The translations under genes and the position numbers were made by a program. DNA of 64,000 nucleotides from Embleya scabrispora (lineage in GTDB: Bacteria; Actinomycetota; Actinomycetes; Streptomycetales; Streptomycetaceae). Numbering within the stretch: the first letter of the stretch is position 1; each line of letters opens with the position of its first letter. Of the stretch, positions 8,003 to 62,746 are shown piece by piece. Location: contig NZ_MWQN01000001.1 in assembly GCF_002024165.1 (NCBI RefSeq), positions 1,426,001-1,490,000 on the forward strand. Reading direction: 5' to 3'. The notes under the pieces are model-generated. The model was not told the DNA's origin. It was given only the letters and a program-made list of their open reading frames with translations, and made no database searches.

Positions 8003-8356
8003 CTTATTTTGTCAGCCGAATGACCCCATACAGTCAAGGCGAAGTAAAGGCCCCTCGCGGCGAACGTGGATCACATCACGTCCCGTTCCGGACCGTTGGC
8101 GCGCCCAGACCCGGGGCTCGCTCCGGCGCCCCGATCGGGCCGCGTTCGACGCCGCGGCGCCGGTCGGGTACGGGCCGAGCGCGGTGCTCGCCGCGGCGTA
8201 CTCGGTTCGGGCGGTGGTCGGGTCCGGCCGACCGGTGGGCCGGCCGAGTGCGGTACCGCTCGCGACCGGCGGCCCGACGCACCCGTGGCCGCCCCGCCGG
8301 CGACCGCCGCAGGGACGCGCCGACGGGCCGATGGGGACCGAGGGCTAGGCCACGTG
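8003..8356. other. Gap between iron box and fadA operator; no gene seen
   Basis: The first ~40 bases are AT-richer and probably belong to the efeO promoter. The remainder is GC-rich sequence whose open frames have shadow-like composition (Arg/Pro/Gly strings) and no ribosome sites. I see no RNA gene or repeat of note. Confidence 0.5.
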
Positions 8357-8372
8357 GTTACCCATGAGTAGC
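8357..8372. promoter_or_regulatory. Inverted-repeat operator candidate before fadA-fadB
   Basis: GTTACCCATGAGTAGC contains the near-palindrome TACCCATGAGTA (10 of 12 symmetric positions, centred on CATG), 38 bp before the fadA GTG. Its place and form suit a TetR- or GntR-type repressor of fatty-acid oxidation, but I cannot assign the protein. Confidence 0.4.
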
Positions 8373-8409
8373 ATGGGGCCCGTACCCATCGGTGGAGGAG
8401 TGTGCGCTC

Positions 8410-9657
8410 GTGCCTCGTAACGTCCGGGACGTCGTCTTCGTAGACGGCGTCCGTACCCCCTTCGGCAAGGCCGGCCCCAAGGGCATCTACCACGAGACGC
8501 GAGCCGACGACCTCGTCATCGCGTGTATCCGTGAGCTGATGCGCCGCAACCCGTCGCTGCCGCCGGCGCGCGTGGACGAGGTCGCGATCGCGGCCACCAC
8601 GCAGATCGGCGACCAGGGCCTGACCATCGGCCGCACCGCGGCGCTGCTGGCCGGCCTGCCGCGCGAGGTGCCCGGCTATGCGATCGACCGCATGTGCGCG
8701 GGTGCGATGACCGCGGTCACCACGGCCGCCGGCGGCATCGCCTTCGGTGCCTACGACGTGGTGGTCGCCGGCGGTGTCGAGCACATGGGCCGGCACCCCA
8801 TGGGCGAGGGCGCCGACCCGAACCCGCGGATCATCTCCGAGCAGTTGGTGGACCCCTCCGCACTGGTCATGGGCAACACCGCGGAGAACATCCACGACCG
8901 CTTCCCGCAGCTCACCAAGGAGCGCGCGGACCGGTTCGCCGTGGGCAGCCAGGAAAAGGCCGCCAAGGCGTACGCCGACAACCTGATCCAGCCCGACCTG
9001 GTGCCGGTCGCGGCCCGCTCGGTGGAGCAGGGCTGGGGCCTGGCCACGGCGGACGAGCCGATGCGCCCGGGCACCACCCTCGAGGGCCTGGCCGCGCTCA
9101 AGACCCCGTTCCGCCCGCACGGCCGGGTCACCGCGGGCAACGCGGCCGGCCTCAACGACGGCGCGACCGCGTGTCTGCTCGCCGCCGAGGACACCGCGCG
9201 CGAGCTGGGCCTGCCGATCAAGATGCGCCTGGTGCAGTTCGCGTTCGCCGGCGTCGAGCCCGAGGTGATGGGCATCGGCCCGGTCCCGGCCACCGAGAAG
9301 GCGCTGGAGCGCGCCGGGCTGAGCATCGACGACATCGGCCTGTTCGAGTTGAACGAGGCGTTCGCGGTCCAGGTGTTGTCCTTCCTGGACCACTACAAGA
9401 TCGCCGACGACGACCCGCGCGTGAACAAGTACGGCGGCGCGATCGCCTTCGGCCACCCGCTCGCCTCCTCCGGCGTGCGGCTGATGACCCAGCTCGCGCG
9501 CCAGTTCGAGGCGCACCCCGAGGTCCGCTACGGCCTGACCTCGATGTGCATCGGGCTCGGCATGGGCGGGACCGTCATCTGGGAGAACCCGAACTGGACC
9601 GGGGCCGACGCGGACGCCACGGCCGCCGGCGCGAACTCCGAGGGGAACGACAAGTGA
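8410..9657 (+). CDS. fadA: Acetyl-CoA acyltransferase (thiolase), beta-oxidation
   Basis: Thiolytic cleavage of 3-ketoacyl-CoA to acetyl-CoA and a shortened acyl-CoA, the last step of beta-oxidation. The 415-residue protein has the active-site cysteine C96 in RMCAGAM, the GHP histidine around H349 (AFGHPLASSG) and the second cysteine around C380 (CIGLGMGG). The GTG at 8410 is chosen because GGAGGAG lies at 8394-8400, 9 nt upstream; an ATG at 8392 would overlap that site. It is translationally coupled to fadB by a 4-bp GTGA overlap, so the two subunits of the trifunctional complex are probably made in equal amounts. A candidate operator precedes the gene. Confidence 0.95.
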   Translation: MPRNVRDVVFVDGVRTPFGKAGPKGIYHETRADDLVIACIRELMRRNPSLPPARVDEVAIAATTQIGDQGLTIGRTAALLAGLPREVPGYAIDRMCAGAMTAVTTAAGGIAFGAYDVVVAGGVEHMGRHPMGEGADPNPRIISEQLVDPSALVMGNTAENIHDRFPQLTKERADRFAVGSQEKAAKAYADNLIQPDLVPVAARSVEQGWGLATADEPMRPGTTLEGLAALKTPFRPHGRVTAGNAAGLNDGATACLLAAEDTARELGLPIKMRLVQFAFAGVEPEVMGIGPVPATEKALERAGLSIDDIGLFELNEAFAVQVLSFLDHYKIADDDPRVNKYGGAIAFGHPLASSGVRLMTQLARQFEAHPEVRYGLTSMCIGLGMGGTVIWENPNWTGADADATAAGANSEGNDK

Positions 9658-13660: not shown

Positions 13661-16600
13661 TCAGCGCAAGCGGTGCAGGGCGCGGCGGGCGGCACCGGCG
13701 ACTGCGGGGTCGGGGTGGGTGGTCTCGGCGAACCGCAGGACGTCCTCGGCGCAGGGGTGGCCCATCGTCGCCAGTTCGCCGAAGACCACGTCGGCGCCCG
13801 GGCCCTGACTGCCCGTCACCTCGGTAAGCAGGCCCAGCACCGCCGCCTCGTGTCGGCCGAGCAGCGCCGCGGCGGCGTTGTCGGCGGTGAGCCAGGCGAG
13901 CGTACGCAGCGTCGCGGGCGGTACGTCGCGGTCGTGGGTCAACCGCCAATTCCACACGTGCGGGGCGAGCGTGGGGTCGGCGCCGGCGTCGGCGAGGGCT
14001 TGTTCGACGGCGGCCTCGGGGAGGTCGGCGTCACCCACGTGGGCGAAGAGCATCAGCCGCTCGGTGGGGCCGGCGGCCCCCGCGACCGCGCACAGCTCGG
14101 ACAGCGCGGCGTCGATCGGGCGGCAGCCGATCCAGCTCGCGAACGTACGCGTGGCGATCGGTCGCGGCCACGCCCCCATCGCGCCGAGCAGGCGGGCGCC
14201 CGAGGCGGCGGTGTAGTCGTCGACAGTGGCGACCGGCAGGCCCTGTTCGCGGAACATCCGGTGCACGAGGGTGCCGCCCAGGCCGGTGAGGGTGATGCCC
14301 TCGGCGGTGCGCCGGACGATGCCCAGCGCGGCCAAGCGGTCTGCGAGCAGGATCACCCCCGCCCGAACCCGGGCCAACACCTCGCCGGACCACTCGAGAG
14401 AGGAGGCGAACGCCCCCAACGCAGTCGCCGGCGCCTGCGGGGGCAACGGCGGCGGCAAGGCGGTCGCGGGTGCGGCCGCAGGCATCGGCGGGTGCGGGGG
14501 CGACGGCGAGGCGGTCCCGGGCACAGACGCGGTCGCCGGCGGATGCGGGGGCGACGGCGAAGCGGTCCCCGACGCAGGCGCGGTCGCCGGCGGATGGGGG
14601 TGCGCGGGCGACGCAGTCGCCGGCGGATGCAGGGGCGACGGCGAAGCAGTCCCCGACGCAGGCGTGGCCGCCTGCGGATGCGGGGGTGACGGCGAGGCGG
14701 TCCCGGGCGCAGGCGCGGTCGCCGGCGGGCGCGGGTGCGGGGGTGACGCAGTCGCCGGCAGGTGCGGGTGCGCGGGGGGCGGGGACGCAGTCCCGGGCGC
14801 AGGCGCGGTCGCCGACGGGTACGGATCCGGGGGCGACGGTAGGGTTGGCGCGGTCGCGGGTTCGGGTGACGGCGCGGCCGGCGCGGTGTCGGGGCCATCC
14901 GACCCGCACAGGCAACCCATCTCGCGGACCAGGTCGGGGGCGTCCAGGATCCGTCCCAGCGCGAACGCCTCGTCGTCGGCGGGCGGCTCGGGCGGCAACA
15001 TCCGAACCACGTGGTCGAGGTCGCGACGCACCGCGAGGCCGACGAACAGCGACACCGGGAGCGGCCCGCCGAGTTGCACCAGCCCGGTGAACAGCGACGC
15101 GGCCAGCCCCTCGGGGACGTCCCAACGCTCGTCGTGCGCCTCTCCGAACGTCGCGTTGTCCTCGGCCACCACCACCATCGCGCGCGCGGCGAGCGCGATC
15201 AGCTCGCCGTCGTCCCCCTCACGCCACACCCGCAGGCCGTCGGCAGCCCGCACCGCACCGTCGTTGGACACCAGCAGCCCGGTGCCGATCGCAAGCGTCC
15301 ACCGCCGGTGCAGCGCATGCTCGTCCCGCGCGGTACGAGGCGGCCCCTCGGCTCGCGACGGCTGCCGAGGAATGCCGAGTTCGGCCATGACGCAGTCGGC
15401 GACCGCGGTCGCCAGTACCCCCTCGTGGGTGATCGGCAACGGCCCGTGCCGCTCGACGTACTCCGCGAGCGCCGCCGCCTGCGCCATCAGCGGCGACATC
15501 CGGGCGGCCAACGCGCACTCGGAGCGGGGCGGCACGTACAGCGGCGGCAGCGCGGGTTCGTCACAACCGCCCGGGCCGGTGAGCGGGGCGGGCACGCCCA
15601 GTTCCAGGAAGCGGGTACGCAGCCCGTACATCCCCAGCGGAGTCAGCCGCACCGCCATGAACGGCGCCCCGCCACCCACCAACTCACGGATCTCCAGCAC
15701 GCCGAACGCCCGCAGGTCATCCATCTGATGCGCCAACGACAAACCGGTGAACAGCGCCGGGTCGGCGACCGAGGGCGACCGGCGCCGCCCGTCGGGTGTG
15801 TAGGAGAGCAATTCGAACAACCCGCCCATCGGCACCCACCGACCCGCGTGGTCGTACAACTCCCGCAACAACTCGCGGATCACATCACCACCGCGCAGTA
15901 CATACGCGGCGCGCCGCACCTCGGGTCGCCCGGTGGCCTCGCCGACCGCAACCCCCTCCCACAGGCTCGACCACACCCGCAGAACATCGCCCGGTCGCCC
16001 GACCGCCAGCACCCGGGCAAGCTCCCCGGCGGTCGCGACCCTACGCCCGACCTCGATCAGGCCGGCCGTACACGCGATCGACCACACCTGGTGCAACGGC
16101 TCCACGTCGCGCGCACTGCGCACGCCGGCGACCGGTTCGTCGATGCCGAGCAGCCGCACCGCCTCCGCCGCGGGCGCCAGTCGCAGCACCCCGGTCGCGG
16201 TCACCGGACGCCCGCGACCGACCCAGCGGGCGAGGGTGAGGGCGGCTGCGAACAACGGCGCGGCCGAGGCGGCCCGAGCCAACTCCCGCTCGTCCGGCAG
16301 CCGCACCGCCGGCAACGCCCGCCCGCGCCCGGGCCCGGTCGCATAGCCCGCCACGAACAACTTCTTCGCCGAGCCCCACCGCCGCGAGTCGGCCATCCTC
16401 GCCGGCAGTTCGCCCTCGTGTCGATCCAGCACCTCGAGCATCGGAACGAGCCGGTCGCTGTCCGGGTGCAGCGGACCCTGCTCGCGCAAAAACTCCAGGA
16501 ACAACCGCAGCGCGGGCACCACCAGCGCCACCGTGTCCTCGCGGGGCAGCGCGACATGCGCCGGCACCAGCGTCTCGAGCAGCGCGTTCAGATCGCCGGC

Positions 16601-16792
16601 CCGCCATCGGGTGTGATCGTCGAGCCGCAGGCACGCGACCCGCAGATCGAGCAGGGTGCCGAGGACATCGATCATCCGCTCGGCATCCGAGGCAGGCCGA
16701 CCGACCCGCGCGAGCCACGTTCCGAAGTCGGCCACGATGCCGCAGGAATCGGGAGATAGCGCCACGTCGCAGAGCGTAGTGAGCACCATCAC
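13661..16792 (-). CDS. Large modular protein of unknown function with Pro/Ala repeat linker
   Basis: A 1043-residue protein, not recognised as a defined enzyme. It has two related N-terminal modules: one around residue 186 (LARWVGRGRPVTATGVLRLA ... AVRLLGIDEP) and a second around 444 (LAEYVERHGPLPITHEGVL ... CVMAELG). This WVG.GR.VT.TGVLR pattern recurs in actinobacterial hypothetical proteins, some linked to the plasmid pRiA4b ORF-3 group; I do not claim that fold here. Residues ~641-784 are a Pro/Ala/Ser/Thr linker built from degenerate GTASPSPPHPPATA units. A C-terminal segment (~785-1043) is helical. There is no signal peptide or membrane span. The start at 16792 (ATG ATG) is the longest; later starts are possible. 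It is monocistronic and convergent with the LCP gene. Confidence 0.75.
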   Translation of the reverse strand: MMVLTTLCDVALSPDSCGIVADFGTWLARVGRPASDAERMIDVLGTLLDLRVACLRLDDHTRWRAGDLNALLETLVPAHVALPREDTVALVVPALRLFLEFLREQGPLHPDSDRLVPMLEVLDRHEGELPARMADSRRWGSAKKLFVAGYATGPGRGRALPAVRLPDERELARAASAAPLFAAALTLARWVGRGRPVTATGVLRLAPAAEAVRLLGIDEPVAGVRSARDVEPLHQVWSIACTAGLIEVGRRVATAGELARVLAVGRPGDVLRVWSSLWEGVAVGEATGRPEVRRAAYVLRGGDVIRELLRELYDHAGRWVPMGGLFELLSYTPDGRRRSPSVADPALFTGLSLAHQMDDLRAFGVLEIRELVGGGAPFMAVRLTPLGMYGLRTRFLELGVPAPLTGPGGCDEPALPPLYVPPRSECALAARMSPLMAQAAALAEYVERHGPLPITHEGVLATAVADCVMAELGIPRQPSRAEGPPRTARDEHALHRRWTLAIGTGLLVSNDGAVRAADGLRVWREGDDGELIALAARAMVVVAEDNATFGEAHDERWDVPEGLAASLFTGLVQLGGPLPVSLFVGLAVRRDLDHVVRMLPPEPPADDEAFALGRILDAPDLVREMGCLCGSDGPDTAPAAPSPEPATAPTLPSPPDPYPSATAPAPGTASPPPAHPHLPATASPPHPRPPATAPAPGTASPSPPHPQAATPASGTASPSPLHPPATASPAHPHPPATAPASGTASPSPPHPPATASVPGTASPSPPHPPMPAAAPATALPPPLPPQAPATALGAFASSLEWSGEVLARVRAGVILLADRLAALGIVRRTAEGITLTGLGGTLVHRMFREQGLPVATVDDYTAASGARLLGAMGAWPRPIATRTFASWIGCRPIDAALSELCAVAGAAGPTERLMLFAHVGDADLPEAAVEQALADAGADPTLAPHVWNWRLTHDRDVPPATLRTLAWLTADNAAAALLGRHEAAVLGLLTEVTGSQGPGADVVFGELATMGHPCAEDVLRFAETTHPDPAVAGAARRALHRLR
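14440..14870. repeat. Degenerate ~51-bp repeat array inside the 1043-residue gene
   Basis: The DNA encoding the Pro/Ala linker consists of imperfect tandem units, with recurring blocks such as GGGGGCGACGGCGAAGCGGTC followed by CGCAGGCGCGGTCGCCGGCGG variants. Typical spacing is about 51 bp (17 codons), with longer variants. All units keep the frame, so expansion or contraction changes linker length only. This is not a CRISPR array: the units are degenerate and there are no unique spacers. Confidence 0.75.
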
Positions 16793-52268: not shown

Positions 52269-52769
52269 ATGGCTGTTGTGTCCATCCCTCGTCGCCATCT
52301 CGTCCGCTCCGCGCTCGGTGTCGCCGCCGTCGTCGGCATCGCCGCGACGACCGTGTTGTCCGGAACGGCGCAGGCCGCCGGCGCCACCTACCTCACCAAC
52401 ATCCGCACTGGGGAACACGCCACCTACGACCGCGTGGTCCTCGACTTCTCCGCCGGCGTTCCCGCCTACGGGAGCACCACGAGCAACGAGCTCTACCAGT
52501 GCGCGAGCGGGAAGCCGATCAGCTTCCCCAACAGCGCCGAATACCTCGAGTTGGACATCGCGAGCGCCGCCCACGACGACAACGGCAACCCCACCTACAC
52601 GGGCCCGCGCCAGGTGACGACCAACCTGCCCTCGCTCACCGGATACGCGATCACCTGCGACTTCGAAGGCAAGCTCAAGGTCGGCATCGGCTACAAGAGC
52701 AACGTGCACCAGGTGGTCACATCCGTTCTGACCAACCCGAGCCGCATCGTGATCGACGTCCGGCGCTGA
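52269..52769 (+). CDS. Secreted AMIN-like domain protein
   Basis: A 166-residue exported protein: Sec/Tat-like signal (RRHLVRSALGVAAVVGIAATT, cleavage after AQA ~36), then a beta-rich domain with YDRVVLDFSAG, YQCASGKPISF and PSRIVIDVRR, the AMIN-like pattern seen in actinobacterial envelope proteins. Two cysteines in the mature part (QCASGK and TCDFEG) may form a disulfide. GGAGG lies 5 nt before the ATG. It converges on the BCCT transporter gene, with a hairpin between. Peptidoglycan or polysaccharide binding is possible but not shown. Confidence 0.75.
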   Translation: MAVVSIPRRHLVRSALGVAAVVGIAATTVLSGTAQAAGATYLTNIRTGEHATYDRVVLDFSAGVPAYGSTTSNELYQCASGKPISFPNSAEYLELDIASAAHDDNGNPTYTGPRQVTTNLPSLTGYAITCDFEGKLKVGIGYKSNVHQVVTSVLTNPSRIVIDVRR

Positions 52770-52939: not shown

Positions 52940-54577
52940 TCAGATTCCGCCGTGGTGTCGGTGGAAGGCCTCGGCCTCGACACCGTCGTCTTCGGCGCCG
53001 ACCGCCGTGCGTACCGCGTCCGACAGACCGCGCGCCCGCATCCGCCGCGGCCCCGCGGCGACCGTCGGATCGCTGTTCAGGTCCTTCAACAGCGCGACAC
53101 ACAACGCCATCATCACCAACACGAACGGCAGCGCGACCAAAATGGTCGCCTGCTGGAGGGACTCGAGCCCGCCCGCGACCAGGAGTACGGCGGCGACCGC
53201 GCCGATCAGGGTTCCCCACACGACCACCAGCAGGCGACCCGGCCTGAGCGAGCCCCGGCTGGTCAGCGAACCGAGCACCAGCGACGCCGAGTCGGCCCCG
53301 GTAACGAAGTACAGCGCGACCAGGACCATCGTCACGGTCGCGGTGACGCCGTACAGGGGTAGTGCGTCCAGCATCGCGAACAGCCCCGATTCCGGCCCCT
53401 CCGCGACCTTCGCCACCAGGTCGGCCGTGCCGGTCTGCTGCATCCGCAGCGCGGTCCCGCCCATCACCGCGAACCAGACGGTGCTCGCCCCGCTGGGTAC
53501 GAGCAGTACGCCGATCACGAACTGGCGGACCGTCCGGCCGCGCGAGATGCGTGCGATGAATGTCCCCACGAAGGGGGCCCAGGAAAGCCACCATGCCCAG
53601 TAGAAGATCGTCCAGGAGCCCATCCACGCGTCGCCGCCGAAGGTTCCGGTGCGGGTCGCCGTGGTCAACAGGTCGTTGAGGTAGCTGCCGACCGAGGCCG
53701 GCAGCACGCCGAGGACGTACACCGTCGGGCCGACCACGAAGACGAACAGCATGAGCACCAGCGCGAGCAGCACGTTCGCGGTGCTGAGCCACTTGACGCC
53801 GCGATGGATCCCGCTGAACGCGGACACCACGAACGCGGCCGTCAGGGCCACGATGATCACCACGTGCAGTGTGGAGGTGTCCTCGATGTCGGTGGTGAGG
53901 TCGAGGCCCTTGGCTACCTGGAGGGCGCCGAGGCCGAGGCTCGTGGCCGAGCCGAACACGGTCGCGAAGATGGCCAACAGGTCGATCGCCCGGCCCGCCG
54001 CACCGTCCGCGTGCCGGCCCAGGAGCGGTACGAATGCCGCGCTGACCCGATTTCCCCGGCCACGCCGAAAGGTCGCGTACGCGAGGGCGAGGCCGGCGAT
54101 CGCGTAGATGGCCCACGGGTGCAGCGTCCAGTGGAACAACGTCCATTCGAGCGCCGCGCCGGCCGCGCCCGGGGTCTCCGGGACCGCCCCCGAGGCCGGT
54201 GGCGGCGTGGTGAAGTGCTGGATGGGCTCGGCCACGGCATAGAACATCAGCCCGATGCCCATGCCCGCGCTGAACATCATCGCGACCCAGGCTCCCGTGC
54301 CGAACTCCGGTTCGTCGTCGTCTCGGCCCAGCCGGATCCGGCCGTACTTCGACAGGGCGATGAACACGGCGAGCACCAGGAAGATGTCGGCGGCGACGAC
54401 GAACAACCAGCCGAAATTGCGGATCGTCCAGTCGAGGCCGGTCGATGCCGCCGTATCGAGCGAATCCTTCGCGAAGACGCCCCAGAGGACGACGGCGAGA
54501 ACGGCGGCGAAACCGATGCCCGCGACGACCGGGTCCACGCGAGGCGCGGCTGCGGCGTCCCGGCTCGATCCGCTCAC
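52940..54577 (-). CDS. BCCT-family betaine/choline/carnitine transporter
   Basis: A 545-residue, 12-helix sodium- or proton-coupled osmolyte transporter. The family signature segments are WVAMMFSAGMGIGLMFYAVAEP (given in parts: MFSAGMGIGLMF, YAVAEP) near residue 92-115, the LFHWTLHPWAIYA helix and WTIFYWAWWLSWAPFVGTF with the Trp-box of the binding site. N- and C-terminal tails are short and charged, and the C-terminal tail may be the osmosensing part. GTG at 54577 has AAAGGA 9 nt upstream. It is monocistronic, 92 bp downstream of the helicase gene's stop on the same strand. Confidence 0.93.
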   Translation of the reverse strand: MSGSSRDAAAAPRVDPVVAGIGFAAVLAVVLWGVFAKDSLDTAASTGLDWTIRNFGWLFVVAADIFLVLAVFIALSKYGRIRLGRDDDEPEFGTGAWVAMMFSAGMGIGLMFYAVAEPIQHFTTPPPASGAVPETPGAAGAALEWTLFHWTLHPWAIYAIAGLALAYATFRRGRGNRVSAAFVPLLGRHADGAAGRAIDLLAIFATVFGSATSLGLGALQVAKGLDLTTDIEDTSTLHVVIIVALTAAFVVSAFSGIHRGVKWLSTANVLLALVLMLFVFVVGPTVYVLGVLPASVGSYLNDLLTTATRTGTFGGDAWMGSWTIFYWAWWLSWAPFVGTFIARISRGRTVRQFVIGVLLVPSGASTVWFAVMGGTALRMQQTGTADLVAKVAEGPESGLFAMLDALPLYGVTATVTMVLVALYFVTGADSASLVLGSLTSRGSLRPGRLLVVVWGTLIGAVAAVLLVAGGLESLQQATILVALPFVLVMMALCVALLKDLNSDPTVAAGPRRMRARGLSDAVRTAVGAEDDGVEAEAFHRHHGGI

Positions 54578-54669: not shown

Positions 54670-57600
54670 TCACTCCTTTGTCGCAGCCATGCCTACGGCC
54701 TGCGCTGTCGACCGGTGAAGCGTCACGATCCGGCGAATCTGCGCGTCGGGGTCGGAAATCCAGTCCCCGCTCCAGAGGCGATACACAACCCAACCGCGCC
54801 GCTCCAGACGGGCCGTCCGCAGCCACTCACGCTCGCGGGCGGAGGGCGTCGCGAGGTAGACCGTGCTGCGATCCGTCTCGATCGCGACGAGCATCCGTCG
54901 CGAGCACCGTCCGCACCCTGCGGCTGCGTTCGTCGATGTCGCCGAGGCCGCGCCTGCGGACACGGGTGCGCCGGCGCGCGCGATCTCGACTGCGTCCTCA
55001 CCCACATGCGCGGTGTCGCCGATGCGGGCTCCGAGGCAGTCGCCGGCGCCCGCGAGTGCGCCTGCGGGCGGGGTTGTGGAAGATGCGCTGGTGGCTGCGG
55101 TGGGAAGTCGGTCGCGGCTTCCGCCCCTGTCGACAACGGCATCCACCTCCACTCGCTCGCAGGCGCCCGCGTCCGCACCCGCACCCGCACCCGCACCCGC
55201 ACCCGCACCAAGGTCTGCCGGACGGTCGGGGAGCGCAATCACGACACCCGCAGGTCCCCCGAATTCGTACATCGGGTCGAGACCGGCCGCCCTCAGCCGA
55301 TCGAGGACGTCCGCATGAAACACGTCCGGACTGTCAACGTCGCACCCGTTGCCGCCGAGCCGCACACCCGCGACCGCCTCCACACGCGCCGGCGCCCCCG
55401 TGCCCGCTTCCTCGCCTTCGGATCTCCCACGACCGCACCCGCACCCGCCCGAGGCCGCGTGCCGCAACACCGCCCGCAACAGCCGGGCGCCGTGTGCGCG
55501 CAGTCGGGTGGGGTCGAGTTCGCTCGCCTCGAAGGCGGTCACCACGATCAGTCGCCGGCGTGCACGGGACACCGCCGACGCCACGAGTGCGTCCCCACCG
55601 GGCATGGTCGCCGCGCCGAATCGATGGATCAGCCGACCCTCACGATCCCGCTTTGCCCCGACGCTGAGGAGCACCGTGTCCCACTCACCCCCATGAAGGG
55701 CCGCCGCGCGACCCACCACGAGGTCCGGGTCCGAGCGCCCCGCCGGCAGCACGGCCCGGATACGGCGCGCCTGCGACCCACCCAGGGTGACAACGGCAAC
55801 GCTCTCGTCGGGATGGCGCGCCCGGTACTCTCGCACCATCTCGACCACTGCCGCGACATCGTCCTCGACCGACACGATGTGCCGCACGGCCACCTCCCCG
55901 CGCACGCCCGAAAGTTCGGCGGCGGCCGCCCCGCCCGGGGGCACCGCGAGCCGTTCGTCGAGGGCACGGTGCGGGTAGCCGATCCGGATCGGCTCGACGA
56001 ACCGGCTCACCGACGCGAGCACCGACCGCAGGTCGCCTTCGGAACCGGGGTCGCCGGGTTCGACGGGACCGTCCGGATCGCCGAACCCCGGCCCCAGGGG
56101 GTCACCGATCACCACGACCCGATCCGCCCGCAACAGCGCCGGGATCGCGTCGCGTTCGCTCACCGTCCCGGCATCGTCCACCACCACCAGGTCGAAGTGC
56201 GCACTGTCCGGCAATTGCCGCGCCGCACGCGGCGACGCCACGTGCACCGGCGCGCTTGCCGGCATCGCCTGCGACCACATCCACCCACCCGAAATTGCTA
56301 CCGGCCCGGCTCCTCCCGCGCTCGCGGTCGCCGCCGCCCTCGTCCCGAAGCGATGCGCGTGCGCCTGCAGGCCCACCACCCCGCCGGGGTCGCCGGCGGT
56401 CGCGGCGTGTGCGAGTGAGGTGTACAGGAATCGCTCGTACTCGTCCGCGACCTCTTCCGCCGGCACCGTCCGCGCCGTCAGGTTCGCGACGAACGGGGCG
56501 AGGCCGGCGGTCGCCAGTCGGGCATACGAGCGACAGCGGTCCGCGAGTACCTCCGGCGACACGCCTTCCGTCGAGATCGATCGGGCGAGCCGGTCGAGGT
56601 GGGCCGCGATGTCGGGCAGTGAAGTGTCGGCAGCCAGGCCCAGGATCGGGAACAGGGTTTCGGTGTACGCCGCGAGCGCCTGCCGTTCGTGCTCGGAGTC
56701 GGCCCACGCCGGTACCATCGCCCGCAGGAACGCCGCCTCGGGCAGTCCGCCCGGCTGCTCACGGAAGAGCCGACGCAGGGCCCGCGCCTCCGCCAGCGCG
56801 AGTCGCGTCCCGCCCCGATCGATGCGGAAGCGAGTGTGCTCGCGCAGATGGCGGCGGACGGAGGGACGGCCGTACCAGTGCGTGGTCGCCAACAGTTGCC
56901 GGATCGAATACGGCCCGGCAAGGATCCCCGGATCGATGCCGACCGAGAACTCTCGCACCCGTTTGACGAGGGTCAGACACGCGGCCCACTCGGCCGGATC
57001 GCGTGGTTCGGGCCGATCGGGATGCAGCCGGGCGCGCCCCGCGGCCGCCCGAATCTCCTGGAAGCGGGCGCGTAGCTCGGCGAGTTCACCGACCGTGGTT
57101 CGCGCCTGTTCGGGAGTGTCGATCTTCACCCCATGCCAGACGCCGTCGCGCAGCCCGCCCGCGTGCGCGAAGCGCTCGAGGTCGCGCCCGAGCCGTCGCG
57201 CCTCGCCTGGATCGAGTTCCGCCGCGTGCCGGGGATCGAGTACAGGCCCACTCCACGGCGGCCGTCCGACGAGGTGGTCCTGGATTCCCCGCAGGGTCAG
57301 CCCCCAGGCGCCGAACGGCTCGACCATGGCGCGCCTGTGCCGATCCAACACCGCGCCGTCCTCGTCACCCGCCCCCTCGCCGGCGCCCCGCCTCCCGCCC
57401 GCACCCGCACCCGTACCCGCGAGTGGTACCCGTGCCCCGACCCCGGCATCGGCGAGCTCCGCCCACAACCGCCGCACGCCATACCGCTGTCGCGTCACCA
57501 CGAGCACACGACCGCCGGTGTCGATCTCCCGTCGGATGATCATCGCGGCGGTCCTGGTCTTGCCCGTCCCGGCCGCGCCCACCACCACGAGGGCGGGAGG

Positions 57601-57837
57601 ACGGGCGGACGCGGCGGCGAGGATCCGCAACTGGTCCGGGTCGGCGTCGCCCACCCACCCCGTCGCCTTCGCGTCGGGATCCGCCGCTCGCAGGGTCACC
57701 GTGGCCCCGGCCAAGGCCGCGACGACGCCCCCGCGAGCGGTGTACCAGCGATGCCCCGGATCGGCCGGCAACGGAAACCGTCCGTCCGCCCAACGCAGCA
57801 GCGCGGCACCGACGACCTCGTCCTCACCATGCGCCAT
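54670..57837 (-). CDS. SF1 helicase with C-terminal restriction-nuclease-like domain
   Basis: A 1055-residue superfamily-1 P-loop helicase/translocase. Motif I (Walker A) is VVGAAGTGKTRTAAM (GAAGTGKT at 87-94); motif II is VVVDDAGTVS (~555, DD rather than DE); VVIGDPLGPGF resembles motif III; HGGEWDTVLLSVG (~715) motif V; and AVSRARRRLIVV (~757) motif VI. The last ~70 residues (LVAIETDRSTV, LRTARLERRGWVVYRLWSGDW) fit the MTES_1575/Vsr-type nuclease domain often fused to such helicases. A ~100-residue Gly/Ala/Pro-rich insertion (~874-972) interrupts it. The ATG at 57837 has GGGAGGA upstream. Defence or DNA repair is plausible; no partner gene is adjacent. Confidence 0.8.
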   Translation of the reverse strand: MAHGEDEVVGAALLRWADGRFPLPADPGHRWYTARGGVVAALAGATVTLRAADPDAKATGWVGDADPDQLRILAAASARPPALVVVGAAGTGKTRTAAMIIRREIDTGGRVLVVTRQRYGVRRLWAELADAGVGARVPLAGTGAGAGGRRGAGEGAGDEDGAVLDRHRRAMVEPFGAWGLTLRGIQDHLVGRPPWSGPVLDPRHAAELDPGEARRLGRDLERFAHAGGLRDGVWHGVKIDTPEQARTTVGELAELRARFQEIRAAAGRARLHPDRPEPRDPAEWAACLTLVKRVREFSVGIDPGILAGPYSIRQLLATTHWYGRPSVRRHLREHTRFRIDRGGTRLALAEARALRRLFREQPGGLPEAAFLRAMVPAWADSEHERQALAAYTETLFPILGLAADTSLPDIAAHLDRLARSISTEGVSPEVLADRCRSYARLATAGLAPFVANLTARTVPAEEVADEYERFLYTSLAHAATAGDPGGVVGLQAHAHRFGTRAAATASAGGAGPVAISGGWMWSQAMPASAPVHVASPRAARQLPDSAHFDLVVVDDAGTVSERDAIPALLRADRVVVIGDPLGPGFGDPDGPVEPGDPGSEGDLRSVLASVSRFVEPIRIGYPHRALDERLAVPPGGAAAAELSGVRGEVAVRHIVSVEDDVAAVVEMVREYRARHPDESVAVVTLGGSQARRIRAVLPAGRSDPDLVVGRAAALHGGEWDTVLLSVGAKRDREGRLIHRFGAATMPGGDALVASAVSRARRRLIVVTAFEASELDPTRLRAHGARLLRAVLRHAASGGCGCGRGRSEGEEAGTGAPARVEAVAGVRLGGNGCDVDSPDVFHADVLDRLRAAGLDPMYEFGGPAGVVIALPDRPADLGAGAGAGAGAGADAGACERVEVDAVVDRGGSRDRLPTAATSASSTTPPAGALAGAGDCLGARIGDTAHVGEDAVEIARAGAPVSAGAASATSTNAAAGCGRCSRRMLVAIETDRSTVYLATPSAREREWLRTARLERRGWVVYRLWSGDWISDPDAQIRRIVTLHRSTAQAVGMAATKE
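54920..55215. repeat. GC-repeat insertion inside the helicase-nuclease gene
   Basis: The block encodes low-complexity Gly/Ala/Asp/Pro sequence between two halves of the C-terminal domain. 55155-55212 is a run of CGCACC/GCGTCC-type hexamers (CCGCACCCGCACCCGCACC). All changes keep the reading frame. The same word family occurs in the gaps at 17.7 kb and 62.4 kb. Confidence 0.75.
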
Positions 57838-58029: not shown

Positions 58030-59019
58030 TCACTCCCGATACAACCGCGCCACCACCTCCTCGATCGTCGGCTCGCGCACGGACACGTCCCGCAGTCCAC
58101 CGTCGCGCGCGATCCTGGCGATCAACTCCCCCGCGGGCACCCCGTCCAGCGCGAAGGTGACCCGGCGACCGTCCGCCTCGACGCCCTCGACCGCGACCCC
58201 GGGCATGCGCACGTCCAGTTCGCGCGCCTCGTCCAGATCGACCACCACTCGCCGGCGCGAGCCGTAGCGCGTGTGCAGGGCCTCCAACGTGCCGTCGTGG
58301 ACCACGCGCCCCCGGTCGATCACGATCAGGCGTCGGCACAGGTGTTCGATGTCGGCGAGGTCGTGGGTGGTGAGCACGGTCGTCACCTCGCCGCCGGCGC
58401 CGACGTCCGCAAGGAACGCGCGCAGCGACTGCTTGCTGACCACGTCGAGTCCGATCGTCGGCTCGTCCAGGAACAGCACGTCGGGTCCGTGCAGGAGCGC
58501 GGCGGTGATCTCGCCGCGCATGCGCTGCCCGAGGGAGAGTTGGCGCACCGGGGTGTCCATGAACTCGTCCAGTTCCAGCATCGCCCGGCATCGCTTCAGC
58601 CGGGCCTCGTGTTCGCCGCGCGGCACCGTGTACACCGCGCCCAACAGGCGGAACGACTCGCGCAGCGGCAGGTCCCACCACAGTTGCGAGCGCTGCCCGA
58701 AGACCACCCCGATCCGGCGGGCGAGCCGGCGCCGGCGGGGTACCGGCTCCAGTCCGCAGACGCGGATGTGGCCCGAGGTCGGGGTCAGGATCCCGGTCAT
58801 CATCTTGAGCGTGGTCGACTTGCCGGCCCCGTTGGGTCCGATGTAGCCGACCATCTCGCCCCGTGCAATGCTCAATTCGACGCCGTCGACGGCGGACACC
58901 GTCCGCGTTTCCCGCCGCACCCGGCCGATCTTGCGTTTGATCGTGAATTCCTTGCGCAGGTCGCGCACTTCGATCATCGTGTCGGTCTGGATCATCGTCT
59001 CGGTCGCGGTGTCGATCAC
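58030..59019 (-). CDS. ABC transporter ATPase subunit (ABC-2 exporter)
   Basis: A 329-residue nucleotide-binding subunit. Walker A is GPNGAGKST (~65), the Q-loop VVFGQRSQLWWDLP, the signature LSLGQRMRGEI (canonical LSGGQ altered to LSLGQ), Walker B LFLDEPTIGLD and the H-loop TTHDLAD. A C-terminal ~90-residue accessory domain follows. The GTG at 59019 is chosen because it overlaps the permease stop as GTGA and has AGGAG 9 nt upstream; a longer frame to 59058 would overlap more. Third in a tight operon with two permeases. An exporter of a small or lipophilic molecule is likely; the substrate is unknown. Confidence 0.93.
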   Translation of the reverse strand: MIDTATETMIQTDTMIEVRDLRKEFTIKRKIGRVRRETRTVSAVDGVELSIARGEMVGYIGPNGAGKSTTLKMMTGILTPTSGHIRVCGLEPVPRRRRLARRIGVVFGQRSQLWWDLPLRESFRLLGAVYTVPRGEHEARLKRCRAMLELDEFMDTPVRQLSLGQRMRGEITAALLHGPDVLFLDEPTIGLDVVSKQSLRAFLADVGAGGEVTTVLTTHDLADIEHLCRRLIVIDRGRVVHDGTLEALHTRYGSRRRVVVDLDEARELDVRMPGVAVEGVEADGRRVTFALDGVPAGELIARIARDGGLRDVSVREPTIEEVVARLYRE

Positions 59020-59825
59020 GATCCCGTACTCCTGTAGTGCCGAATCCCCGTCCGCCACACCAGCAGCGCGATCGTCCAGGCGAGTGCGGCGGCGGCCGGA
59101 GAGGTCCAGGCGAGCCAGTTCGGCCCGCCGAGCGGATCCGCGTGCCCCGTCAGGAACAGCGCGGGCTGATAGCCGACGAGCGCGAGGCCGACCCCGTACC
59201 CGAACACCCGACGCAGCAGCCCCGGGTAGATCGTCGCCGGATAGCGGGCGAACTCCTTGCCGCCGTAGGTGAACGCGTTCGCGATCTCGCCGGATTCGAC
59301 GAACCAGAACGCGACGCAGGCGCCCAGCAGGAACACCGCCGCGAACAACGCGCAGCCCGCGAGCGGGGTGAGCGCGAGCATCAGCGCGCGCGCCGGTGTC
59401 CAGTCGATGTCGGCGTATATGAGAACCGCCACCAGCAGCACCGACGACTGCGCCACGCGCCCGACGCGGCGCAACGCGAAGTCGGTGGCGAGCAGTTGCG
59501 GCAGTACGCGCAGCGGGCGGATGAGGATGGTATCGAGCGTGCCCTTGCGGACGTATGTGGACAGGCGTTCGATGTTCCCCACCAGCAGGTCCGCGAGGTC
59601 GAACGCGAAGGCCGCGAGCGCGGACATCACCAGCACTTCGCGCAGCCCGAATCCGCCGACCGTCGGCGAGACGCGGAACACCACCAGGACCACCGCGGCC
59701 TCGACGAGCGTGCCCAGCGCGCAGGACGCGACGTCGATGGCGAACGACAACCGGTACTGGGTCTGACTGCGGATCTGGGCCCGCACCAGGCGCGCGTACG
59801 CCTGTCCGCCTCCCGGTTCAGCCAC
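59016..59825 (-). CDS. ABC-2 type permease subunit
   Basis: A 269-residue, six-helix membrane subunit of the DUF990-like ABC-2 class. After a short amphipathic N-terminus (RAQIRSQTQYRLSF) the helices are visible as FAIDVASCALGTLVEAAVVLVVF, MSALAAFAFDLADLL, VLLVAVLIYAD, MLALTPLAGCALFAAVFLLG, and a C-terminal pair. The start GTG at 59825 overlaps the previous gene by 8 bp and its stop overlaps the ATPase start as GTGA. It pairs with the next permease as a heterodimeric pore. Confidence 0.88.
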   Translation of the reverse strand: MAEPGGGQAYARLVRAQIRSQTQYRLSFAIDVASCALGTLVEAAVVLVVFRVSPTVGGFGLREVLVMSALAAFAFDLADLLVGNIERLSTYVRKGTLDTILIRPLRVLPQLLATDFALRRVGRVAQSSVLLVAVLIYADIDWTPARALMLALTPLAGCALFAAVFLLGACVAFWFVESGEIANAFTYGGKEFARYPATIYPGLLRRVFGYGVGLALVGYQPALFLTGHADPLGGPNWLAWTSPAAAALAWTIALLVWRTGIRHYRSTGS

Positions 59826-60672
59826 CCTGGATCACCAGCCTGTCGGTGGCGGCGCGCTGCACGCGCCACACGAGCGGGATCAGGATGGCGACCCACACCA
59901 GTTGCAGGACGACGCTGCCGATCTGCTGTGCGGGGCCGGGACGTTCGACCAGCACGTCGAGCGGGATCTGGAACAACCCGGGGAACGGGGTGGCGAACCA
60001 CAGGATGGCCTGCCCCCACTCGGGCAGGAAGCGCAGCGGGAAGAAGGTGCCCGCGAACACCCCGGAGGCGAGCAGCCACACCGCGGTCAGGCCGCGCGCG
60101 TCGAGGAGCCAGAACGCGCCGAGGTTGACCAGATAGCGCAGGGTGAAGCTGAGCACTGTGCCCAGGGTCAGCGAGATCGCGAACAGCGGCACCGTGTAGA
60201 GGCGATGCGGGATGTACAGGGTGAACATCAGGCCGCCGGCGAGGACGGGGACGACCATGCGGGCGAGGACCGCGTAGGCGGCGCGCCCCAGATCGGCGGC
60301 CAGGAACGCTTCGAAGGGGTCGATGGGGCGCAGCAGATCGGCGGTCACGTCACCGCTGCGGACGCGGTCGGCGAGTTCGTTCCAGGACCACACGTGGACG
60401 ACGCTGAGGATGCCCTGGCCGACCCAGACGTAGGTGGCGAGTTGCGTGGTGTCGTAGCCGCCGGGCCGGCGGCCGTCGTCGGCCAGGGCGCGCAGCAGCG
60501 AGTAGATCATCACACCGAAGACGATGTTGGTGAACAGTCCGGCGAGCGCCGCCTGGCGGTACGTGGACCAGCGGCGAAAGCCCGCGCCGAACAGCGCGCC
60601 GAAGCGGTACAAGCGGGCCCGGCGATCGGGCGCGCGGTCGGGCCGCAGCGGGCGCGCGGAAGCGAACGACAT
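59818..60672 (-). CDS. ABC-2 type permease subunit
   Basis: A 284-residue, six-helix membrane subunit related to the viologen-exporter/ABC-2 group. It begins with a basic cytoplasmic tail (RPDRAPDRRARLYRF), then helices such as ALAGLFTNIVFGVMIYSLL and VWVGQGILSVVHVW, and a conserved NELADRVRSGDVTADLLRPIDPFEAF loop (in parts: RVRSGDVTADLLRP). ATG at 60672 is preceded by AAGGGA; an earlier GTG/ATG at 60726 is weaker. It is first in the ABC operon and is divergent from the TerD gene across 285 bp. Confidence 0.9.
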   Translation of the reverse strand: MSFASARPLRPDRAPDRRARLYRFGALFGAGFRRWSTYRQAALAGLFTNIVFGVMIYSLLRALADDGRRPGGYDTTQLATYVWVGQGILSVVHVWSWNELADRVRSGDVTADLLRPIDPFEAFLAADLGRAAYAVLARMVVPVLAGGLMFTLYIPHRLYTVPLFAISLTLGTVLSFTLRYLVNLGAFWLLDARGLTAVWLLASGVFAGTFFPLRFLPEWGQAILWFATPFPGLFQIPLDVLVERPGPAQQIGSVVLQLVWVAILIPLVWRVQRAATDRLVIQGG

Positions 60673-60957
60673 GGTGGAATCCCTTCCCCGGGCGGCGTGC
60701 GGCGTCGGCGGGGCCGAAACGGGCACGCGAGTCCGGGCATACCGGAGTGACCTCGGTCGGAGGCGTGGGGATGCTCACTCTTGGTTTCGTTGCGCCGAGT
60801 CTGATGCGTGACGAACGCCGACTCCGGCCCGCAACACCCCGGGCAAGGCGAGCAAGAATAGCGGACACGCGGGTACGTTTCACCCCGGTTTTACTCACCC
60901 GTCCGAGTGGGCACTCGATTTTTTTGCGCCAGGGGATGAACCGATCAGCCCACTCGT

Positions 60958-62286: not shown

Positions 62287-62746
62287 CGCGGAAGCCGACG
62301 CCCGCGCCCGGCCTCGCGCACGTCGCGGGCACGGCCGCGGGCGCCTTCGCGATCGCGGACACGGTCGCGGGTGCGGGCGCCGTCCCGGTCACAGGGCGCG
62401 GGCGCGTCGGCGGTTGCGGTCGCGAGTGAGTCGGCGGTCGCGGGTGCGGGCGCCGTCCCGGTCACAGGGCGCGGGCGAACCACCGGCTCCGGGCGCGTCG
62501 GCGGTTGCGGGCACATCGCGGTCGTGGGCGGGTCGTCGTCGCGGGCGGGGGTTGGACACGGTCGCGGGCACTGTCGCGTTCACCCACGTGGGGGCGCCCG
62601 CAAGCGCAGGCGCAGGCGCAGGTGCGGACATGACCGCGGTCGCCGGCGCAGACGTATCCCCGTGCCCGCGGGAGCACCCTCGGGGCGGCCATACGGCACG
62701 TGCGGCCAAACGCAGTCGGCCTACGCCCACCCCGCCCCGTGCCCCC
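62287..62746. repeat. 460-bp gap with exact 42-bp direct repeat and GCGGGC words
   Basis: A 42-bp sequence is duplicated exactly at 62363-62404 and 62436-62477 (begins GGTCGCGGGTGCGGGCGCCG, ends GGGCGCGGGCG). A second word, GGGCGCGTCGGCGGTTGCGG, recurs at 62400-62419 and 62491-62510. Other short GCGGGCAC and CGCAGGCGCAGG units fill 62300-62690. No gene is supported; the TerD stop and the unknown gene's stop are convergent here. Confidence 0.8.

Follow-up and report, generated by a model that had tools for sequence, protein, structure and literature searches.

The gene at positions 54670-57837 (minus strand) of the window, the whole 64,000-nucleotide stretch of Embleya DNA analysed here, is probably a catalytically crippled descendant of a family of proteins that combine a DUF4011 domain, an SF1B helicase and an MTES_1575 nuclease. 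Judging from its sequence, it would belong, as an outlier, to a group of actinobacterial pseudoenzymes. The open reading frame encodes 1055 aa between an ATG at 57837 and a stop codon that ends at 54670, in agreement with the frame, strand and coordinates given in the earlier note. This start is supported by the orthologue in E. hyalina, with which the ATG is shared, and by a stub of the gene in a third Embleya genome (G002) that starts at the same position. The protein has a match to AAA_11 (27.3 bits; Pfam cut-off 27) and, at residues 980-1038, to PF18741 (MTES_1575 REase; 43.6 bits, gathering cut-off 38.2), which bears out the C-terminal nuclease fusion proposed earlier. The features of the gene and its flanks are as follows (residue numbers refer to the predicted protein).

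54670-57837, minus strand: putative SF1B (UPF1-like) pseudo-helicase with a degenerate MTES_1575 nuclease, 1055 aa (ORF, Pfam, fold prediction)
57556-57588, minus strand: motif I / Walker A, residues 84-94 (VVVGAAGTGKT), intact, Lys93 retained (residue alignments)
56281-57432, minus strand: helical domain from motif Ia to motif II, residues 136-519, homologous to the same domain of motif-intact relatives, dN/dS 0.25 (fold, dN/dS, profile)
56167-56187, minus strand: motif II / Walker B, residues 551-557 (VVVDDAG), Glu replaced by Asp (residue alignments)
56086-56118, minus strand: motif III region, residues 574-584 (VVVIGDPLGPG), lacking the Gln of GDxxQLPP (residue alignments)
55678-55698, minus strand: motif V, residues 714-720 (LHGGEWD), Gln replaced by His (residue alignments)
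55552-55584, minus strand: motif VI, residues 752-762 (VASAVSRARRR), arginines retained (residue alignments)
55336-55449, minus strand: low-complexity linker, residues 797-834, with 6 extra residues (ECGCGC) in E. hyalina (alignment, fold)
55219-55332, minus strand: first part of the nuclease fold, residues 836-873, FE replaced by FH and YRID by VVIA (residue alignment, fold)
54904-55218, minus strand: disordered Ala/Gly-rich insert, residues 874-978, in the loop between the two catalytic strands, differing in length between two species (alignment, fold)
55173-55209, minus strand: perfect hexamer array (GGTGCG)n, 37 bp, encoding GAGAGA (repeat scan)
54673-54903, minus strand: second part of the nuclease fold, residues 979-1055, E987-x-D989 kept, YHSS replaced by YLAT (Pfam, residue alignment)
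58030-60726, minus strand: flanking ABC-transporter ATPase and two adjacent ORFs (probable permeases, listed without a Pfam scan), syntenic in all four Embleya genomes
52940-54577, minus strand: BCCT transporter on the other side, with synteny in G001 and G003 and no copy found in the G002 stretch

The AlphaFold2 model of the protein (34 sequences, mean pLDDT 70.8) has an SF1 core whose best match in the PDB is Upf1 (Z 23.1, 384 residues), with Ighmbp2 at Z 22.9. In the model, the two RecA-like domains resemble those of UPF1-like structures, as is characteristic of the SF1B fold. A PDB sequence search with the query alone gives no match; a family-profile search matches UPF1, SMUBP2 and DNA2. 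UPF1, IGHMBP2 and DNA2 share the helicase core fold with the query (Z 19-23) but differ from it in having other accessory domains and intact catalytic residues. A long helical domain lies between motifs Ia and II, and the nuclease fold is broken by a disordered segment (residues 874-978, pLDDT about 28) flanked by strands at residues 865-870 and 982-988. An independent profile built from 24 motif-intact relatives matches all of the query apart from two regions, DUF4011 and the half of the nuclease that carries the insert. The DUF4011 domain was not found in the query, either by Pfam or with this profile, which is unmatched before position 282.

Catalytic residues were tabulated for about 120 homologue rows. 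Motif-intact members read KDEQQER in the helicase (Walker A Lys, Walker B Asp-Glu, motif III Gln, motif V Gln and Glu, motif VI Arg) and EDEDH in the nuclease. At the helicase positions the query reads K, D, D, gap, H, E and R. SF1 motifs I-VI are present, as the earlier note had proposed, including the unusual Asp pair of motif II (D554-D555), but they are not all canonical: the protein retains the Lys and Arg of an active SF1 helicase and has DD for DE, no Gln in motif III and His for Gln in motif V. At the nuclease positions it reads H, V, E, D and L, and an ungapped reading puts Ala868 at the Asp position. Set against the Glu, Asp, Glu and His of motif-intact members, it has H, A (V in one alignment), E and L, so that the Glu, Asp and His expected of an active MTES_1575 REase are missing and E987 and D989 are still present. 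The nuclease active site therefore appears to be gone and the motor impaired, with Walker A and motif VI remaining. Residual ATPase activity is possible, given that Walker A and motif VI still have their Lys and arginines and that an Asp is able to stand in partly for Glu.

The nuclease domain is interrupted by a disordered stretch of 105 residues, close to the 100 or so estimated in the earlier note. Its description as a Gly/Ala/Pro sequence made of GC hexamer runs fits in part: the insert is rich in Ala (30 residues) and Gly (19 residues) but not in Pro, and it contains the perfect array at 55173-55209 but is not a perfect hexamer array elsewhere. The suggestion that it is expanding is not borne out by the comparison with E. 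hyalina. Five indels separate the query from E. hyalina (-2, +6, -6, +4 and +12 aa in the relative); four of them fall within the linker or insert and the fifth at residue 141. All are in frame and they run in both directions. Insert length thus varies between the two Embleya species without direction. The dN/dS of the insert between the two is 0.64 (0.32-1.34), and the insert and nuclease tail are not distinguishable from neutral. The insert is not what disables the protein, because the same residues are missing in relatives that have no insert.

An origin of the insert as a genome-wide repeat of one kind was rejected, as the exact string (GGTGCG)4 occurs at just two places in the genome. Other GC repeats are present in the window. 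The 1043-aa ORF at 13661-16792 (minus strand) has a Pro/Ala/Thr/Ser low-complexity stretch with 51-bp and 135-bp GC-rich tandem repeats at 14448-14838, so such repeat-coded stretches are not peculiar to the helicase-nuclease gene. A further GC-rich tandem repeat (periods of 6, 24 and 73 bp) at 62309-62477 is apparently intergenic. Brachybacterium members of the family (L177, L183-L218) have a long Ala/Pro/Glu/Asp-rich stretch of their own immediately ahead of the nuclease domain, close to the site of the Embleya insert but not at the same position.

Four Embleya genomes were compared: that of the window (G000), Embleya hyalina NBRC 13850 (G001), G002 and G003. The gene is intact in two of the four, G000 and G001, where it sits between the ABC-transporter ATPase and the BCCT transporter. 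In G002 it is a frameshifted stub (residues 1-95 in two frames) in which the Walker A sequence GAAGTGKT has become GAVDTATT. An aldolase-like ORF lies beside the stub (L040, about 8100-9000), in the place taken in other Embleya by the BCCT transporter and the greater part of the helicase gene. There is no trace of the gene in G003, in which the BCCT and ATPase genes are about 1 kb apart. A small secreted-looking protein encoded at 52269-52769 (plus strand) of the window is conserved and syntenic in all four genomes. Between G000 and G001, whole-gene dN/dS is 0.35 (0.27-0.45), compared with 0.07-0.22 for the neighbours; by region, it is 0.12 for residues 701-800 (motifs V-VI) and 0.25 for the mid domain. 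Taken with the stub in G002 and the absence from G003, these values indicate that the gene is kept under relaxed selection and is dispensable.

A class-wide scan finds the family in 57 of 394 genomes and 26 of 138 genera. An identity search of the genome contigs with the query alone gives no relatives, and a profile of the query and Jiangellaceae proteins gives 78 named loci. The alignment rows fall into 39 that are motif-intact, 13 with an intact helicase and a degenerate nuclease, 69 with both degenerate and three cut by contig ends; these are counts of rows and not of genomes, as some genomes stand in both collections (for example G391/L201, G057/L205 and G001/L164), and the 69 include a few that are truncated as well. 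Motif-intact members include Dactylosporangium, Micromonospora and Salinispora. Degenerate members include Jiangella, Phytoactinopolyspora, Haloactinopolyspora and Brachybacterium.

Relatives that have lost both catalytic centres are kept as core genes across whole genera. In genus g80, the gene is found in 59 of 60 genomes (70-91% identity), the Walker A sequence is TLPGTGGTQT, with Gly for Lys, in all 20 aligned copies, and median pairwise dN/dS is 0.22. Both folds are kept in the structure prediction for a g80 member (pLDDT 86.2, pTM 0.73). The matched frame of several g80 copies (L130, L133 and L136) includes in-frame TAG codons, one or two per copy; these may reflect read-through of the start region or real disruption. 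All 12 Jiangella genomes carry the gene, with dN/dS of 0.15-0.24 for Jiangellaceae pairs; for core degenerate relatives overall, the value is about 0.1-0.25. From their sequences, the degenerate actinobacterial members look like conserved pseudoenzymes that are core genes in g80 and Jiangella. This clade of motif-degenerate relatives is the larger fact, and it lay beyond the view of a reader of the window alone. The query and the Jiangellaceae proteins have in common a GGPxG sequence with Ala for the nuclease Asp, and DDAG or EDAG in motif II.

Members from several families are surrounded by a recurrent set of genes, encoding MscL, an FmdB-type zinc ribbon protein, a SAF-domain protein, a GalU-type nucleotidyltransferase, a 5-FTHF cyclo-ligase, a GNAT acetyltransferase and a penicillin acylase. 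Neighbours of the mscL/fmdB/galU type occur in 37 rows and in 0 of the 39 motif-intact rows, within the limit set by flanks of 3-10 kb. A literature search found no paper describing these mscL-locus pseudo-helicase-nucleases. They resemble the query in the kind of motif II and nuclease Asp losses, and the tree tentatively groups the query with their Jiangellaceae members. They differ from it in having a conserved locus and an N-terminal region (about 1240-1600 aa in total), and each of them is without the Walker A Lys or the Walker B Glu, or without either; the shorter Embleya gene lies elsewhere in the chromosome and has kept the Walker A Lys. Embleya's own mscL locus, about 1.3 Mb from the window, has no family member. 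Brachybacterium members are degenerate, yet they too are away from the mscL locus.

In a tree built with the catalytic columns left out, the query and its G001 orthologue are grouped with a Frankiaceae MAG and the degenerate members of Jiangellaceae (98/99 support), and a tree in which the query joins the motif-intact proteins from its own family is rejected only weakly (p 0.037). The two Embleya proteins share a very long branch (2.36 changes per column), which raises a genuine concern that long-branch attraction determines this placement. Because the Embleya copy lies elsewhere than at the mscL locus, the case for its shared ancestry with the core pseudoenzymes comes from sequence and not from position. 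A second degenerate clade (f32, f46, f49, f47, f45, f5 and f38) is separate from the first, and the relatives with an intact helicase adjoin it. On this tree the helicase state has changed at least twice, which suggests that the ATPase residues were lost at least twice among the relatives.

The earlier note related this lone helicase-nuclease to phage-defence proteins, and that relationship is real but distant. In NCBIfam and PADLOC scans, the query matches only ProA (NCBIfam NF058533; PADLOC PDC-S37) at 126.1 bits, with a curated cut-off of 1500, and Hhe (NCBIfam NF042953) at 63.3 bits, with a cut-off of 2000. ProA is an anti-phage DUF4011 helicase-nuclease in which, as in the query, an SF1 helicase with a long helical domain is followed by an MTES_1575 nuclease; the query differs in lacking DUF4011, the C-terminal DUF3320 and the catalytic residues, and in having the disordered insert. 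Hhe, also a DUF4011 anti-phage protein, is matched in the helicase motif region and nuclease tail, and most of its 1797-position profile is unmatched. A literature search for PDC-S37 found no text. The same genome encodes a motif-intact 1680-aa DUF4011/SF1/MTES_1575/DUF3320 protein (L053:7006-12048, plus strand), which scores 1139.8 bits to ProA, also under the cut-off. In one study of P. aeruginosa (PMC10250203), a DUF4011 gene is used as the core marker next to a defence hotspot in all isolates.

The earlier proposal of a variant phage-defence system, which here would mean a functional one-gene form of ProA or Hhe, is very improbable. The distant homology, the intact Walker A and motif VI and the patchy presence within Embleya would be in keeping with it. 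Against this, the nuclease Glu, Asp and His are gone, DUF4011 is missing and both scores miss their cut-offs by an order of magnitude. Nor does the gene lie in a defence island, a setting rejected after a PADLOC scan of six neighbouring genes gave no defence gene and only weak matches from the ABC ATPase. Of the two options offered in the earlier note, a variant system or one in decay, the latter comes closer. Terminal decay, in which a once-functional helicase-nuclease is drifting to loss without present function in Embleya, is nevertheless unlikely. It would explain the stub in G002 with its destroyed Walker A, the absence from G003, a dN/dS higher than that of every neighbour, a third-position GC of 0.815 where neighbouring genes have 0.90-0.92, and an insert and nuclease tail indistinguishable from neutral. 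However, the frame is open in two species at a synonymous distance of 0.17, all five indels are in frame, and dN/dS is well under 1 for the whole gene, with low values for motifs V-VI and the mid domain.

Less probable still is a slow but active SF1 translocase that has lost the nuclease alone. Thirteen rows have just this combination, and the query keeps the Walker A Lys, the motif V Glu/Asp and the motif VI Arg; however, the Walker B Glu is now Asp, the Gln residues of motifs III and V are both gone, and its nearest relatives in the tree lack the helicase residues.

The proposed model for the family and its Embleya member, a crippled pseudoenzyme, is as follows. At one actinobacterial locus, the nuclease residues would have been lost first and the motor residues later, while the fold was held by selection. 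The Embleya gene, we infer, was relocated from the mscL locus rather than derived by transfer, and would be a shortened, loosely constrained member. Its product lacks both DUF4011 and the active site of the nuclease, and retains the predicted helicase fold, the Walker A Lys and the motif VI arginines. We also infer a loss of catalysis: the protein is most likely unable to cut DNA, and would hydrolyse ATP poorly if at all. At most it may bind nucleotide and nucleic acid, the latter by analogy with AddB and RecC, in which an inactivated SF1 helicase domain serves as a scanner of Chi sequences (PMC4824097). AddB and RecC resemble the query in retaining an inactivated SF1 helicase domain for another role, but they are UvrD-like and belong to multi-subunit complexes, so the comparison is one of analogy and not of homology. 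More tentatively, the gene beside mscL, fmdB and galU may be a vertically inherited core gene of Actinobacteria whose motor (at least twice independently) and nuclease were switched off and whose fold was co-opted for a non-catalytic cellular role, such as nucleic-acid scanning or scaffolding, the Embleya gene being a relocated member that is still shedding catalytic residues.

NCBIfam and PADLOC label the members of this family as anti-phage helicase-nucleases. If a large actinobacterial branch of it indeed lacks the catalytic residues, is core and is under purifying selection, a profile match in that branch would not imply a defence function. It would also add a case to those, such as AddB and RecC, in which a helicase fold is kept for a role other than unwinding. 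The genera that carry the gene throughout, Jiangella and genus g80, make this role directly testable.
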